Of a stretch of DNA of 35,143 nt, positions 5,549-35,143 are shown piece after piece. This DNA is from Gammaproteobacteria bacterium. GTDB taxonomy: Bacteria; Pseudomonadota; Gammaproteobacteria; Pseudomonadales; Pseudohongiellaceae. The notes beneath the pieces were generated by a model, which was given only the letters and a program-made list of their open reading frames with translations, had not been told where the DNA came from and searched no databases. The first letter of the stretch is position 1, and every line of letters begins with the position of its first letter. Made by a program: the position numbers and the translations under genes. The DNA lies in contig JAUHWU010000021.1 in NCBI GenBank assembly GCA_030427065.1, forward strand, positions 1 to 35,143, given 5' to 3'.

Positions 5549-6364
5549 GTGGTGGATTTATCACGCATACGCATAGTCCTTGTACAAACAACCCATCCCG
5601 GGAACATAGGTGCAGCCGCCAGGGCCATGAAAAACATGGGCCTGAAAAAGCTGGTTCTGGTAAGACCCAGAGATTTTCCCTCAGGCGTTGCTCTTGGCAG
5701 GGCAGCTTCGGCACTGGATATTCTTGATAATGCCGGGGTGGTCGATAGTCTGGATGAGGCTATCGCTGATTGTGGTCTTGTCATTGGTACCAGCGCCCGT
5801 TCCCGCAGTATTCCATGGCCCATGGTTGAGCCAGAAGACTGTGCTGAAAAACTGGTTGTTGCCAGTAATCAGAATGATGTGGCCCTGGTGTTTGGTCGCG
5901 AAGACCGGGGACTGAGCAATGACGAACTCCAGTTGTGCCATTTCCACGTTCAGATCCCTGCCAACGAAGAGTATCCCTCTCTTAATGTCGCCGCGGCAGT
6001 CATGTTGCTTTGCTACGAGATCAGAAAGGCAGTGCTGAGGGCTACAGCTGAGGCGCCGTCAGAGAGTACCGGCTCGGGTAATCTGGCAGATCCGGGTAAA
6101 ACACAAGGGATCGACGATCCAATCTATGAAATTTGGGATCAACCTCTGGCCACCGTAGCTGATCTTGAGGGTTATCTGAAACATCTGGAAAAAGTGCTGG
6201 TCAGGCTGGAGTTTCATGATCCGGAAAACCCTAGACAGTTGATGTCCAGGCTACGTCGACTGTATTCGCGGATTCGCCCTGATACTATGGAAATCAATAT
6301 CTTACGTGGCGTTTTGGCATCTACTGAATACCAGCTGGACAAGAAAGACAGTCAAAAAAGCTAA
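5549..6364 (+). CDS. trmJ: tRNA (cytidine/uridine-32-2'-O)-methyltransferase TrmJ
   Basis: TrmJ 2'-O-methylates position 32 in the anticodon loop of several tRNAs with SAM. The SPOUT (SpoU) fold motifs are all visible: HPGNIGAAARAMKNMGL near residues 16-32, VFGREDRGLSNDEL in the middle, and YPSLNVAAAVMLLCYEI forming the knot. At 271 residues it is longer than E. coli TrmJ (246); the extra sequence is a polar linker (SESTGSGNLADPG) before the C-terminal helical part. The start is GTG at 5549 (a second GTG at 5552 is possible), with AAGGAAG at 5540-5546. The gene precedes iscR as in E. coli; no cysE lies between them, unlike in Pseudomonas. Confidence 0.93.
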   Translation: MVDLSRIRIVLVQTTHPGNIGAAARAMKNMGLKKLVLVRPRDFPSGVALGRAASALDILDNAGVVDSLDEAIADCGLVIGTSARSRSIPWPMVEPEDCAEKLVVASNQNDVALVFGREDRGLSNDELQLCHFHVQIPANEEYPSLNVAAAVMLLCYEIRKAVLRATAEAPSESTGSGNLADPGKTQGIDDPIYEIWDQPLATVADLEGYLKHLEKVLVRLEFHDPENPRQLMSRLRRLYSRIRPDTMEINILRGVLASTEYQLDKKDSQKS

Positions 6365-25359: not shown

Positions 25360-25980
25360 TTATTTATTTTTGATGACAAGCAGATAGCCTTCTTCTTTAA
25401 CAGGGTTTTTCAGCTCCACTTCGAGAAGTTCGCTATTGAATTTCTTCTTACATTTCTTTGCCAGCTTCAGGAAGGGGGATCTGCCGGGATCTGCGATAAC
25501 TATTGTCTTCACCCCATTTTTTAAAGATTTTTTGATTAATGTATACAGAGGGCCTATGAGTTCATCCCAGAAGCAGATATCTCCACCAAGAACCATATCC
25601 TGCTGCGCAAGCAGGCCGGATTTAAGTTTTTCATATTTGCTAACCTTGGTTTTTACCGAGGTATTGTTGAGTTCAGCATGCATGTGCAGGAATGGGAAAA
25701 CATTTTTATCGGCATCGACAGCGATTACCTCGGCCGAAAATTGTTTTGCACACCAGATGCTGAGTATTCCCCAGCCACTGCCAATTTCCATGATTCTGGA
25801 GTTGGTTTCTGGTGGATTTTCGAGAAGATAATCCATGATGATATAACTGGAAAACCAGACCTTGTCACCATGAATTTCCGGGGTGCTGGTTTTTTTGAGC
25901 AATTTTTTTATTGTTTTATGCTTTTTCTTGTAAAGCTTGAGTCCGCGGACTTCTTTTACATCTTCTTTATCGCTGCTCAT
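25360..25980 (-). CDS. Small class I SAM-dependent methyltransferase
   Basis: The 206-residue product has the Rossmann motif I IMEIGSGWGILSIWCAKQF at about residues 63-81, followed by VIAVDAD (motif II acidic end) and GGDICFWDEL, which resembles the post-motif of the METTL/methyltransferase-16 protein-lysine methyltransferases. The first 35 residues are very rich in lysine (KLYKKKHKTIKKLLKKT). The substrate is unknown. It lies directly upstream of ppk1 on the same strand. The gene and the 240 bp upstream are more AT-rich by eye than the neighbours, a possible sign of acquisition. Family sure, subfamily tentative. Confidence 0.7.
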   Translation of the reverse strand: MSSDKEDVKEVRGLKLYKKKHKTIKKLLKKTSTPEIHGDKVWFSSYIIMDYLLENPPETNSRIMEIGSGWGILSIWCAKQFSAEVIAVDADKNVFPFLHMHAELNNTSVKTKVSKYEKLKSGLLAQQDMVLGGDICFWDELIGPLYTLIKKSLKNGVKTIVIADPGRSPFLKLAKKCKKKFNSELLEVELKNPVKEEGYLLVIKNK

Positions 25981-26219
25981 AAAAAATACTGCCCCATATT
26001 CAGCTCTATTTTTACATCTAAATGTTTGGCTTCGATTAAAATAAAATTAAGAATCATTTCTATATACGCATGTGAATCTATTTTTTTCTGTTAATGAGTT
26101 AGTTCATGCCTTGCTCAAGTAAACGGAAAATGAATGCTTTGTAATTATGTTGATCTATAAAAGAGGTTCTTGATACTACTAGTTCTATTCTAATGTTGTT
26201 TGGTACCAGCCTTTTACTA
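25981..26219. other. AT-rich gene-free gap between methyltransferase and xseA
   Basis: A 239-bp stretch, visibly AT-rich, between two minus-strand genes. It presumably carries the promoter for the methyltransferase-ppk1 pair, but I could not find a pair of hexamers at good spacing on the minus strand, nor a terminator for xseA. Confidence 0.4.
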
Positions 26220-32037: not shown

Positions 32038-32541
32038 TTATTCATGGCTTTTCAAGGGGGTTGATTGGCGATCAAGCGCTCCCACATCAAGAACAGGCGC
32101 TGCATCGATATCCTCTGCATCCATCATGGACGCCACTCGTTGCAGCGAAGCAATAATCATGTTTTGTTCCCAGTCATCCAGATGCTCAAAGGCCTTGATG
32201 AAATTATCCTGTAAAGGAGGGGGCGCCTTGGCGATTATTTTTTTCCCGTTGTCGGTAAGGTAGGCATGAACAATTCGTTTATCTTTAGTTGAGCGTTTTC
32301 GAATGACCAGATTTTTGGTTTCCAGGCGATCAAGGATACTGGTGACGGTGGCCTGACTAAGGCTGATTTCCAATGCCAGTTCCCTGATACTCACCTCGCC
32401 CCTGTTTTTTATGGATAACAGCAATAATAGCTGAGGGGTCGTTAATCCTGTTGATTTGACCAGATCTCTGGAATAGAGGTCGGTTGCACGAATGAGTCTG
32501 CGCAGGGCAATCAGCACGCTCTCAATTTGATTCTTTTTCAT
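32038..32541 (-). CDS. MarR-family regulator, EctR/CosR-like
   Basis: The 167-residue winged-helix protein has MarR features: LTTPQLLLLLSIKNRGEVSI, the recognition helix SLSQATVTSILDRLE at about residues 62-76, and the wing KRSTKDKRIVHAYLT. The start LRRLIRATDLYSRDLV and C-terminal WEQNMIIASLQRVASMMDAEDIDAAPVLDVG resemble, as I remember them, the EctR and CosR repressors of compatible-solute genes. It is divergent from the betaine-synthesis genes, which fits control of osmolyte production. Specific naming is inference; MarR family is sure. A perfect TATAAT (minus strand, 32618-32613) could be its -10 element. Confidence 0.85.
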   Translation of the reverse strand: MKKNQIESVLIALRRLIRATDLYSRDLVKSTGLTTPQLLLLLSIKNRGEVSIRELALEISLSQATVTSILDRLETKNLVIRKRSTKDKRIVHAYLTDNGKKIIAKAPPPLQDNFIKAFEHLDDWEQNMIIASLQRVASMMDAEDIDAAPVLDVGALDRQSTPLKSHE

Positions 32542-32708
32542 GACCTAATAACTTTCCGGATTACAACAGGGCTTCCTGGAATTGCCAGGCCAAGTGCTTG
32601 TGATGGAGAATTATTATAATACCCGGACCCGGGATTGTGGTATTTACTGTTAATTTTTCGTGTCGTTCCGAATCACTTTGCTATTCCTTTCGCTTTGTAA
32701 GGAAATAT

Positions 32709-32720
32709 TTAGTATACTAA
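32709..32720. promoter_or_regulatory. 12-bp palindrome, candidate operator of the MarR regulator
   Basis: TTAGTATACTAA is a perfect palindrome in the divergent intergenic region. It lies 24 bases upstream of the predicted -35 of the methyltransferase operon. The flank TATTTAGT (32706-32713) followed by ATACTA resembles the published EctR1 operator from a methylotroph as I recall it, but without its two-base centre. A looser relative, TTAG-N8-CTAA (32852-32867), lies just before the first methyltransferase start. Confidence 0.55.
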
Positions 32721-32743
32721 CGAACTATTGCAAATATCTCTGT

Positions 32744-32772
32744 TTGACTCTGCAATACTCTCCAGATAAAAA
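32744..32772 (+). promoter_or_regulatory. Promoter candidate for the betaine-synthesis operon
   Basis: TTGACT (32744-32749) and TAAAAA (32767-32772) are 17 bases apart. The -10 is weak; the following 60 bases are very AT-rich and could hold alternatives. The rest of the 342-bp gap from 32542 to 32883 holds no ORF I can support. Confidence 0.4.
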
Positions 32773-32883
32773 TTACAATAATTATATATAAAACATATAG
32801 ATAAACCGATTCTAAAGAGAATGCCGTAGTTTCATGTCTATATTTTAATGTTTAGAATACATACTAATAATCATGGTGAATAT

Positions 32884-33786
32884 ATGTCAGAACATGAAGT
32901 GCAAGTGAGTAATATGGCCCAGAAGAAACACACAATATCAATAGACCCTGGCACTGGTGAGCCTGCACCGGTTCCCTTGAATCAGATTCCTAAAGATCAG
33001 GATTACGGTGCACAACCTGAGGAAGTTCGCAGTACGGAACAATATCAGGAAGAATATGTAGAGAGTTTTGTTGAGCGCTGGGATGAGTTGATTGACTGGG
33101 AAGCACGCGCCGAGGGAGAAGGGCAGTTCTTCATTGATATTTTGAATAAGCTGGGCAAGCATAACATTCTTGATGCGGCTACCGGTACCGGTTTTCACTC
33201 CGTTCAGTTATTGCAGGCAGGGTTTAATGTCACCAGTGCTGATGGCAATGCCCAGATGCTGGTAAAAGCGTTTGAAAATGCCAAGGATCGTGGCCATGTG
33301 ATGCAGACAGTGCATGCAGACTGGCGTTGGCTGAACAGGGATGTTCAGGACAAGTTATTTGATGCAGTGATTATTTTAGGTAACTCATTTACCCATTTGT
33401 TTGAGGAACACGACCGTCGCCGCGCTTTAGCGGAATTTTATGCAGTGCTCAAACATGATGGTGTACTAATAATCGACCAGCGAAATTATGACGGTATTCT
33501 GGATGATGGATTCAAGTCCAAGCACAAATACTACTACTGCGGGGATAAAGTCTCGGCACAGCCTATTCATGTGGATGATGGTCTTGCCCGTTTTGAATAC
33601 TCCTTTGAGGATGGGTCAAAGCATCACTTGAATATGTTCCCGCTGCGCAAGGATTACCTGCGCGGACTTATTTACGATGCAGGCTTCCAAAAAATTGATA
33701 CCTATGGAGATTTCCAGGAAACCTATAAAGAGGATGACCCTGATTTCTATGTTCATGTTGCCTACAAGGATTACCATGCAAAATAA
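32884..33786 (+). CDS. Glycine/sarcosine N-methyltransferase
   Basis: This enzyme (GSMT) uses SAM to methylate glycine to sarcosine and then dimethylglycine, the first half of de novo glycine betaine synthesis. I chose ATG 32884, with GGTGA (32875-32879), giving 300 residues; an ATG at 32848 is in frame but lacks a site. Seen: FVERWDELIDWEARAEGEG, SAM motif I ILDAATGTGFHSV at about residues 93-105, IDQRNYDGILDDGF, HHLNMFPLRKDYLR and TYGDFQETY, all typical of halophile GSMTs. Its end overlaps the next gene by 11 bp, so translation is likely coupled. Confidence 0.9.
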   Translation: MSEHEVQVSNMAQKKHTISIDPGTGEPAPVPLNQIPKDQDYGAQPEEVRSTEQYQEEYVESFVERWDELIDWEARAEGEGQFFIDILNKLGKHNILDAATGTGFHSVQLLQAGFNVTSADGNAQMLVKAFENAKDRGHVMQTVHADWRWLNRDVQDKLFDAVIILGNSFTHLFEEHDRRRALAEFYAVLKHDGVLIIDQRNYDGILDDGFKSKHKYYYCGDKVSAQPIHVDDGLARFEYSFEDGSKHHLNMFPLRKDYLRGLIYDAGFQKIDTYGDFQETYKEDDPDFYVHVAYKDYHAK

Positions 33787-34612
33787 TCTATCTTCAGCCG
33801 AAGTGCTGACTGAATCCTACTATGACAGTAGTGACGCTGATCGTTTTTATGAGCAGGTCTGGGGTGGTGAGGACATTCACATTGGTTTGTATGATGAAAC
33901 CGACAATATCCCCGAGGCAAGTCGGAAAACAGTAACGACAATGGTTGATAACCTGCGAAGCCTGAATGTTCAAAGCAGGGTAATTGATCTGGGTGCAGGT
34001 TATGGTGGATCTGCGCGTTATCTGGCAAAGCAGTCTGGCTGTAACGTTACCTGTCTGAATATCAGTCAAGTGCAGAATAGTCGCAATCGCGTATTAAATC
34101 AGCAACAGGGGTTCGATAAACAAATAGAGGTACGTCATGGCAGTTTTGAAGAAATTCCCTGCCCGGATTCCTCTATGGATATTGTCTGGTCCCAGGATTC
34201 TTTTTTACACAGCAGTCAGAAAGAAAAAGTACTGAGCGAAATCAGCCGAATAATGGTGCCTGGTGGAGAACTGATTTTTACTGATCCGATGCAGGCAGAT
34301 ACTTGTCCTGAAGGCGTTTTGCAGCCGGTTTATGACAGGCTAAATCTTGAATCCATGGGGTCGTTTGCCTTTTACCGGGAGACACTCACGTCCTTGGGGT
34401 TTGAAGAAACCAATGTCATCGATTTAACACCACAGTTACGCAATCATTATGATTATGTCAGGCAGAACCTGCAGGGACGCTATGACGAGCTTGTCGCCAT
34501 TATCAGCCATGAGTACATGGACAATATGATCAAAGGTCTGAAAAACTGGGTGGCCGCGGCAGACAAGAGTTATCTTGCCTGGGGTATTTTGCACTTTACC
34601 AAAGTCAGCTAG
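33776..34612 (+). CDS. Sarcosine/dimethylglycine N-methyltransferase
   Basis: SDMT completes betaine synthesis by methylating sarcosine and dimethylglycine to glycine betaine with SAM. The ATG at 33776 has AAGGA (33767-33771) and gives 278 residues, the usual size. Motifs: YYDSSDADRFYEQVWGGEDIHIGLY at the N-terminus (seen in this family and its sarcosine-specific relatives), SAM motif I VIDLGAGYGGSARYLA at about residues 68-83, and WSQDSFLHS. The open frame runs upstream to 33677 inside the previous gene, which is not used. Partner of the preceding GSMT. Confidence 0.9.
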   Translation: MQNNLSSAEVLTESYYDSSDADRFYEQVWGGEDIHIGLYDETDNIPEASRKTVTTMVDNLRSLNVQSRVIDLGAGYGGSARYLAKQSGCNVTCLNISQVQNSRNRVLNQQQGFDKQIEVRHGSFEEIPCPDSSMDIVWSQDSFLHSSQKEKVLSEISRIMVPGGELIFTDPMQADTCPEGVLQPVYDRLNLESMGSFAFYRETLTSLGFEETNVIDLTPQLRNHYDYVRQNLQGRYDELVAIISHEYMDNMIKGLKNWVAAADKSYLAWGILHFTKVS

Positions 34613-34626
34613 GCAGCCCGGATATT

Positions 34627-35143
34627 TTGGACGAGTCAACGCAGAACAAGATCGCAGCCAGGTCCGATTCTGCCAAAGGACTTTCAACTGACCCACTGAT
34701 ATTCTTTTCGGTATTGGGTCTGGTGCTGCTTATTCTGTTGGCGACTATTATCGATCGACAGCAAACCGGTATTTTTCTCTTCGGTTTGCAGGATGCGATT
34801 GTTGAATATTTTGCCTGGCTATTCCCCCTGACGGTTAGCGGTTTGCTGGTATTTTCCCTGTGGCTGGTGTTTTCACGCTATGGACAGATAAAGCTCGGCC
34901 CTGATGATAGTAAGCCTGAGTTCAATACTATTGCCTGGATATCGATGCTGTTCAGTGCCGGTATGGGTATTGGTCTGGTCTTTTTTGGTGTCGCAGAACC
35001 CGTCCTCCATTATTTGGCTCCACTCCAGGCTGCGCCTGAGACAGTTGCCGCCGCCAGAGAAGCGATGCGGCTGTCAATATTCCATTGGGGCCTTCATGCC
35101 TGGGCGATTTATGCCGTGCTTGGCATGGCGTTAGCCTACTACC
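34627..35143 (+). CDS. BCCT-family transporter, N-terminal part
   Basis: The frame starting at TTG 34627 runs off the window end. It encodes at least 172 residues of a betaine/choline/carnitine transporter, a sodium- or proton-coupled carrier for compatible solutes. After a polar N-terminus, helices begin with LIFFSVLGLVLLILLATII and LFPLTVSGLLVFSLWLVF; then comes the family hallmark GMGIGLVFFGVAEPV and FHWGLHAWAIYAVLGMALAYY. The start is uncertain: TTG with GGA four bases before it; no ATG lies nearby in frame. It begins 14 bp after the SDMT gene, so betaine uptake and synthesis seem co-transcribed. Confidence 0.88.
   Translation, partial: MDESTQNKIAARSDSAKGLSTDPLIFFSVLGLVLLILLATIIDRQQTGIFLFGLQDAIVEYFAWLFPLTVSGLLVFSLWLVFSRYGQIKLGPDDSKPEFNTIAWISMLFSAGMGIGLVFFGVAEPVLHYLAPLQAAPETVAAAREAMRLSIFHWGLHAWAIYAVLGMALAYY

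Follow-up and report, generated by a model that had tools for sequence, protein, structure and literature searches.

A candidate glycine betaine cassette adjoined by an EctR/CosR-type MarR regulator gene in a gammaproteobacterial contig

The window analyzed here is a stretch of 35,143 bases, contig C253 of a gammaproteobacterial genome (family Pseudohongiellaceae) of 3.42 Mb in 262 contigs. At its right end lie a gene for a MarR-type regulator and, divergent from it, genes for a glycine/sarcosine N-methyltransferase (GSMT), a sarcosine/dimethylglycine N-methyltransferase (SDMT) and a BCCT transporter, the last of which is truncated by the contig end. These genes, which we consider a candidate osmoprotection cassette, and the predicted sites between them are as follows.

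32038–32541, minus strand: MarR regulator, assigned to the EctR/CosR type, 167 amino acids (aa), no cysteine, C-terminal stretch MMDAEDIDAAPVLDVGALDR
32706–32723: predicted operator O1, TATTTAGTATACTAACGA, core palindrome TTAGTATACTAA; top motif site of the window
32849–32866: possible second, weaker operator O2, TGTTTAGAATACATACTA, immediately 5′ of the GSMT ribosome-binding site
32884–33786, plus strand: GSMT, 300 aa; NF051855; solved GSMT 5gwx
33776–34612, plus strand: SDMT, 278 aa; NF041675 (below cut-off); 2o57
34627–35143, plus strand: BCCT transporter, first 172 of 517 aa; PF02028, TIGR00842; remainder on contig C20
31566–32027, plus strand: tadA-like deaminase gene, the left border of the cassette; deaminase families

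Genes of the cassette and their genomic setting

An earlier reading of the same DNA (the original prediction) had described a divergent MarR gene, GSMT and SDMT genes with an 11-bp overlap, and a BCCT gene 14 bp further on, and this layout was borne out by the open reading frames and their family matches. The SDMT frame begins at position 33776 and the GSMT frame ends at 33786, and the BCCT frame opens at a TTG codon (34627), 14 bp past the SDMT stop. This spacing suggests that GSMT, SDMT and BCCT are transcribed as one unit; the MarR gene, being divergent, lies outside it. No terminator-like site was found between 32500 and 32900. The part of the cassette that lies in the window has a G+C content of 45.2%, compared with 47.1% for the first 31.5 kb, and gave no signal of foreign origin.

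GSMT scored 461 bits against NF051855 over its full length, above the curated cut-off of 350, and its best solved relative was the glycine sarcosine N-methyltransferase 5gwx (410 bits). Translation of GSMT most likely starts at the ATG at 32884, which is preceded by GGTGA; both the GGTGA and the ATG are conserved in the sister genome of a congener, G002. A longer frame starting at the ATG at 32848 was ruled out, because that ATG is absent from G002. The second enzyme is named SDMT-like on the basis of its context and its best solved match, 2o57, a putative sarcosine dimethylglycine methyltransferase (234 bits), rather than by the NF041675 cut-off. The 172 aa of the carrier that are encoded in the window scored 177.6 bits against PF02028. 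The final 127 bases of the window recur unchanged at the end of contig C20 of the same genome, and when C253 and C20 were joined, the BCCT frame comprised 517 aa and scored 520 bits against the BCCT subfamily TIGR00842 (cut-off, 407.55). The best solved relatives of the carrier were a trimethylamine transporter followed by choline carriers, with BetP lower, and its substrate may be betaine or choline.

On C20, a TorF-like porin gene comes after the carrier. Four congeners gave no GSMT or regulator match, and in three of them (G001, G003 and G005) a porin gene directly follows tadA, a synteny that supports the joining of C253 and C20. Further neighbors on C20, namely sulfate-permease-like and carbonic-anhydrase-like genes, also occur in G001 and G003; these names and the kinship of the porins were judged by eye from the sequence starts. 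The fourth congener, G004, has different genes after tadA. The cassette therefore looks as if it occupies a site that is empty in three congeners, emptiness being judged from the regulator and GSMT searches and the tadA–porin adjacency. Within the genus, the regulator or GSMT was matched in two genomes, the present one and G002, and in each of them the two genes are neighbors; the other four gave a match to neither. In G002, the contig stops behind SDMT, so that the BCCT position lies beyond its end. As for other osmoprotectant genes of the genome under study, ectoine synthase (ectC) had no match, choline dehydrogenase (betA) was matched only below its cut-off (512 and 469 of 732 bits), BCCT is a single gene, seen as two contig halves, and the window gene was the one regulator homologue at an E value of 1e-10.

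The regulator and its predicted operator

The MarR protein scored 59.7 bits against PF01047 (cut-off, 24.6), which places it in the MarR winged-helix family, and it fell far under the NCBIfam cut-offs for OhrR, HpaR, MarR, MprA and SlyA. Homologues with E values of 1e-10 or better were found in 76 of 194 genomes, its own included. There were 82 matches besides the window, and 75 of these loci were examined; the other seven, all weaker (E 5e-17 and above), were left out. Within 5.5 kb of the homologue, 31 of the 75 loci carried ectB or ectC, 24 carried TonB receptor genes, six a BCCT or ProW-like permease gene, two NAGGN genes, and one, that of G002, GSMT; 11 had none of these. Among the 17 homologues with at least 60% identity, 12 were ect-linked. 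In Leisingera and Sphingobium plasmid relatives the regulator gene is divergent from ectABC, and in a Vibrio nigripulchritudo plasmid relative it comes after proVWX, with ectABC on the far side. Two homologues with 62–64% identity (L109 and L110) adjoin Lon protease and periplasmic-binding-protein genes and none of the osmolyte genes that were sought.

In the first tree (98 rows), the window protein and its G002 counterpart were sister to an ect-linked protein (support, 98/87), and Escherichia coli MarR, MprA and SlyA, the sole representatives of other MarR families, fell outside the homologues (99/91) on long branches; the bootstrap of this tree had not quite settled. The second tree (92 rows), from which L251, L170, L172 and the three E. 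coli rows were omitted, gave the same sister grouping with the ect-linked protein (97/86) and placed the window protein within a 35-row clade that contained 25 ect-linked proteins (97/96) and was unresolved in the first tree. Vibrio megaplasmid homologues, 46–54% identical to the window protein, fell among the homologues in the first tree. The assignment of the window protein to a drug-, peroxide- or phenol-type MarR family was rejected on the NCBIfam scores and the trees; a grouping with drug- or phenol-responsive families had been put forward in advance as a test of the original prediction, and no such grouping appeared. Grouping and operator together support the membership of the regulator in an EctR/CosR-type clan, the references for which are the ect-linked relatives and the Vibrio homologues, rather than EctR1 and CosR themselves.

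A C-terminal stretch, MDAxxIDA[A/S]PxL, is common to the window protein and its ect-, BCCT- and TonB-linked relatives. It is kept in most of the aligned homologues and could serve as a family signature. The TonB-linked homologues (L114, L124, L144, L146–L151, L153–L157, L159, L162–L169 and L171) often have a TPR-sulfotransferase gene as the next neighbor, and the operator-like palindrome described below is found in many of their loci.

A motif that was constrained to be palindromic was trained on the upstream regions of 28 ect-linked loci, with the window held out (TATTTAGAnnTCTAAATA). Three further ect-linked loci, not used in training, scored 19.4 (L125), 15.3 (L160) and 15.3 (L111) bits. 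When the whole window was scanned, the top site, with 16.07 bits, was O1 in the MarR–GSMT intergenic region, and the runners-up scored 11.67 bits (position 26007) and 10.44 bits (O2, also before GSMT). The site at 26007–26024 lies 27 bases before a predicted methyltransferase gene (25360–25980, PF10294) and may be due to chance. O1 is conserved in G002, where it scored 17.45 bits, and O2 is largely conserved. As a predicted site, O1 has the architecture of an EctR-type operator, that is, an A/T-rich pseudo-palindrome with 8-bp half-sites and a 2-bp spacer in a shared intergenic region. At four GSMT genes that lack the regulator, the promoters scored 8.54, 7.95, 5.09 and 5.37 bits. The pattern TNNTTAGWNNWCTAANNA, which was composed once the site was already known, has one exact occurrence in the genome, at O1. 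Across 74 relative loci, the 28.9 kb of sequence preceding the regulator contained 19 sites of at least 16 bits and the remaining 669 kb contained 11, a contrast that is overstated because the 74 include the 28 training loci. A scan for sigma-70 promoters gave three promoter-like matches against a shuffle mean of 1.8, hardly above chance. Two trees and a motif derived from ect loci that marks the MarR–GSMT intergenic region thus uphold, as far as sequence comparison can, the EctR/CosR-like identity that was first proposed for the regulator.

Occurrence of the regulator–GSMT pairing in other genomes

The survey of GSMT neighbors suggested with the original prediction was run on the best 80 of 514 confirmed GSMT loci in the contig collection, which are the nearest ones and in many cases come from metagenome-assembled genomes (MAGs). 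In all but one of the 80 loci, SDMT came directly after GSMT in the same orientation, and a BCCT match was present in 19 and lay after SDMT within 500 bp in 17; this recurrence (79/80 and 17/80) indicates that the GSMT–SDMT–BCCT arrangement is not due to chance. A MarR match was present in 15 loci, and in 13 of the 80 an EctR-like gene stood beside GSMT; L251, with the MarR gene 4 kb off, and L257, with a weak and partial match, were not counted as adjacent. The 13 paired loci belong to the congener G002 (L183), Exilibacterium, eight Chromatiaceae, Roseiconus (Planctomycetota), a MAG that bears the name Deltaproteobacteria but is classified under Myxococcota, and an unassigned MAG. The complete order of MarR, GSMT, SDMT and BCCT was observed in four (L191, L218, L225 and L259), and in L218 and L225 the regulator gene is on the GSMT strand, not divergent. 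The original prediction had called the pairing of such a regulator with the glycine route less commonly described. This fits the literature that was found, although in genomes the pairing recurs.

A site of at least 14 bits before GSMT was found at eight of the 13 paired loci, compared with two of 64 loci without a MarR match (Fisher p = 2.4e-6), and the site scores of all 15 MarR-bearing loci differed from those of the 64 without (Mann–Whitney p = 1.2e-5); these statistics count related rows separately, the Chromatiaceae not being independent, low G+C favors the motif, and one locus was too short to score. A search for the regulator in the genomes of 16 GSMT loci found it in three, including the positive control, L191. 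L185 has a strong site and no MarR neighbor, and its genome carries the regulator elsewhere, beside a BCCT gene, as would be predicted if the regulator acted on such sites. Of the 13 other genomes searched, whose sites scored no more than 11.4 bits, a single one, L221, yielded a homologue (46%). On the second tree, the GSMT label needs four changes, at least three of which are forced by well-supported branches; in the first tree, the label had taken in L251, whose MarR gene is 4 kb away. The regulator–GSMT pairing is recurrent, and in the second tree it is spread over three or more branches.

Proposed function, alternatives and known systems

Considering the above data together, it is probable that the locus is an osmoprotection cassette for making and importing glycine betaine under a repressor of the EctR/CosR type. 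GSMT and SDMT would methylate glycine three times, with S-adenosylmethionine as the donor, to give glycine betaine, and the BCCT carrier would import betaine (or choline) or recapture betaine that has leaked. At low salt, a dimer of the regulator would bind the palindrome at 32706–32723, and perhaps also the weaker site at 32849–32866, and would hold down both the GSMT–SDMT–BCCT unit and its own gene (autoregulation). A rise in salt would loosen this binding, and expression of all three genes would increase in concert; one signal that has been proposed for the EctR/CosR-type family is a shift in ionic strength. We infer the binding of the regulator, the repression of GSMT, autoregulation and the salt response from gene order, the grouping of the regulator and the conserved operator-like site.

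Several observations speak against this interpretation, and some of them favor other explanations of the locus. With regard to the enzymes and the carrier, SDMT scored 348 bits against NF041675, under the equivalog cut-off of 550, and the joined BCCT protein scored 565 of 650 bits against NF047988, the equivalog for glycine betaine uptake. These scores, together with a trimethylamine transporter as the best solved match of the carrier, would suit an arrangement in which SDMT and the carrier serve another end, for example with sarcosine or dimethylglycine as the end product, or with choline as the import. We regard this as very unlikely, since five other SDMTs adjacent to GSMT in other genomes also fell below the NF041675 cut-off (337–422 bits, all under 550), which shows that the cut-off is strict, and since the best solved match of SDMT has a putative function of the expected kind.

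With regard to the motif, once a single mismatch is allowed, the pattern TNNTTAGWNNWCTAANNA has eight places in the genome and its backward control has 65; it thus shows no genome-wide enrichment, and its location is what counts. Seven of 30 ect-labelled loci scored less than 10 bits upstream of the regulator, four of which have a site of at least 16 bits elsewhere in the locus. Furthermore, this class of motif is not exclusive: TonB-linked relatives bear similar sites, and SlyA is cited as binding the similar site TTAGCAAGCTAA (PMC8070244), so that the motif by itself would be no proof of family membership.

MarR family proteins mostly sense ligands, and the presence of 24 of the 75 relatives near TonB receptor genes suggests solute import. 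Both points would agree with a window protein that responds to a ligand, such as choline, betaine or an aromatic compound, instead of acting as an osmotic repressor. We judge this improbable, because the protein scored far below the cut-offs of the ligand- and peroxide-sensing families, has no cysteine and groups with ect-linked regulators.

With regard to the pairing, five of the 13 paired loci (L218, L225, L246, L255 and L259) are without a strong site, and Candidatus Nitrotoga M5 (L184) has a strong site (5834–5851) before GSMT and no regulator homologue in the genome search. In G013, a genome of the same family (L034), GSMT, SDMT and BCCT with the 11-bp overlap stand without an adjacent EctR-like regulator, and their promoter is without the operator. 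Divergent MarR genes commonly autoregulate, and the MarR gene might be a bystander that controls itself and perhaps distant genes, while the GSMT–SDMT–BCCT unit responds to salt through its own promoter. In Methylomicrobium, EctR is not the sole cause of the salt induction of the ect genes, part of which remains when EctR is lost (PMC5924519); for this reason, loss of the window regulator may change little. In Thioalkalivibrio versutus, the glycine route to betaine is, in the view of the authors who studied it, probably controlled post-translationally (PMC9062515). Nevertheless, a mere bystander is unlikely, because within the genus the regulator and GSMT either stand side by side, in two genomes, or are both unmatched, in the other four, and because the pairing occurs in at least three tree branches, with the operator at eight of 13 loci.

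If the osmoprotection cassette is read in this way, the clan of the regulator suggests that this type of repressor follows the job of salt protection, and not one pathway. We lean towards the broader view that EctR/CosR-type MarR proteins form a pathway-independent osmolyte switch, in which a single clan of regulators, with a single operator code, has been joined time and again to whatever osmolyte module a lineage possesses: ectABC, NAGGN genes, uptake of the ProU or BCCT type and, on three or more separate branches, GSMT–SDMT. This would hold across Gammaproteobacteria, Planctomycetota and Myxococcota, although so far the operator code has turned up among the Gammaproteobacteria, and the GSMT loci of the planctomycete and the myxobacterium are without a strong site. 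Betaine from glycine is a main salt-protection route of many halophiles. No transcriptional repressor is named for this route in the literature found, as far as its partial coverage goes, and the present locus offers a candidate together with a precise predicted operator. What EctR senses has been called largely unresolved (PMC13342039), and the pairing sharpens this question: a regulator type that stands beside chemically unrelated osmolyte routes makes a pathway product a less likely signal than a common one, such as ionic strength.

Among known systems, the GMT–DMT(–betT) clusters of Thiohalocapsa, Lamprobacter, Halochromatium and Rhodopirellula encode the same pair of enzymes, in some cases followed by betT (PMC7824335). 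Imhoff (2020), the closest paper found, listed GMT–DMT for Thiohalocapsa halophila, Lamprobacter modestohalophilus and Halochromatium roseum, with no regulator named in the available part of that paper (PMC7824335). In our survey, an EctR-like gene was found beside GSMT in three of the strains named there (L237, L246 and L255), with a strong site only in L237, Thiohalocapsa halophila DSM 6210, which is thus a cultured strain that has both the candidate regulator and the strong site. No description of an EctR, CosR or MarR gene with GSMT–SDMT was found in the literature searched, the coverage of which was partial.

EctR1 of Methylomicrobium (Methylotuvimicrobium) alcaliphilum is encoded next to ectABC-ask, so that there, too, a MarR gene adjoins an osmolyte operon, and the EctR operator is an A/T-rich pseudo-palindrome of two 8-bp half-sites 2 bp apart (PMC5924519), like the motif described here. 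EctR1 differs in that it controls ectoine synthesis, whereas the present genome is without an ectC match, and the likeness is one of description, not sequence. Vibrio CosR is a MarR repressor of ectABC, betIBA-proXWV, bccT3 and proVWX (PMC7876524), and its consensus, TTTGA-NN-TCTAA (PMC8070244), fits the motif found here; in contrast to the window regulator, it is a global regulator whose betaine targets are choline oxidation and uptake, and it was again compared by description and not by sequence. PA3458 of Pseudomonas aeruginosa, with more than 300 reported binding sites and a different osmolyte, is a divergent MarR repressor of the NAGGN osmoprotectant operon (PMC8070244). It resembles the arrangement at the present locus, and two relatives of the window regulator likewise adjoin NAGGN genes.

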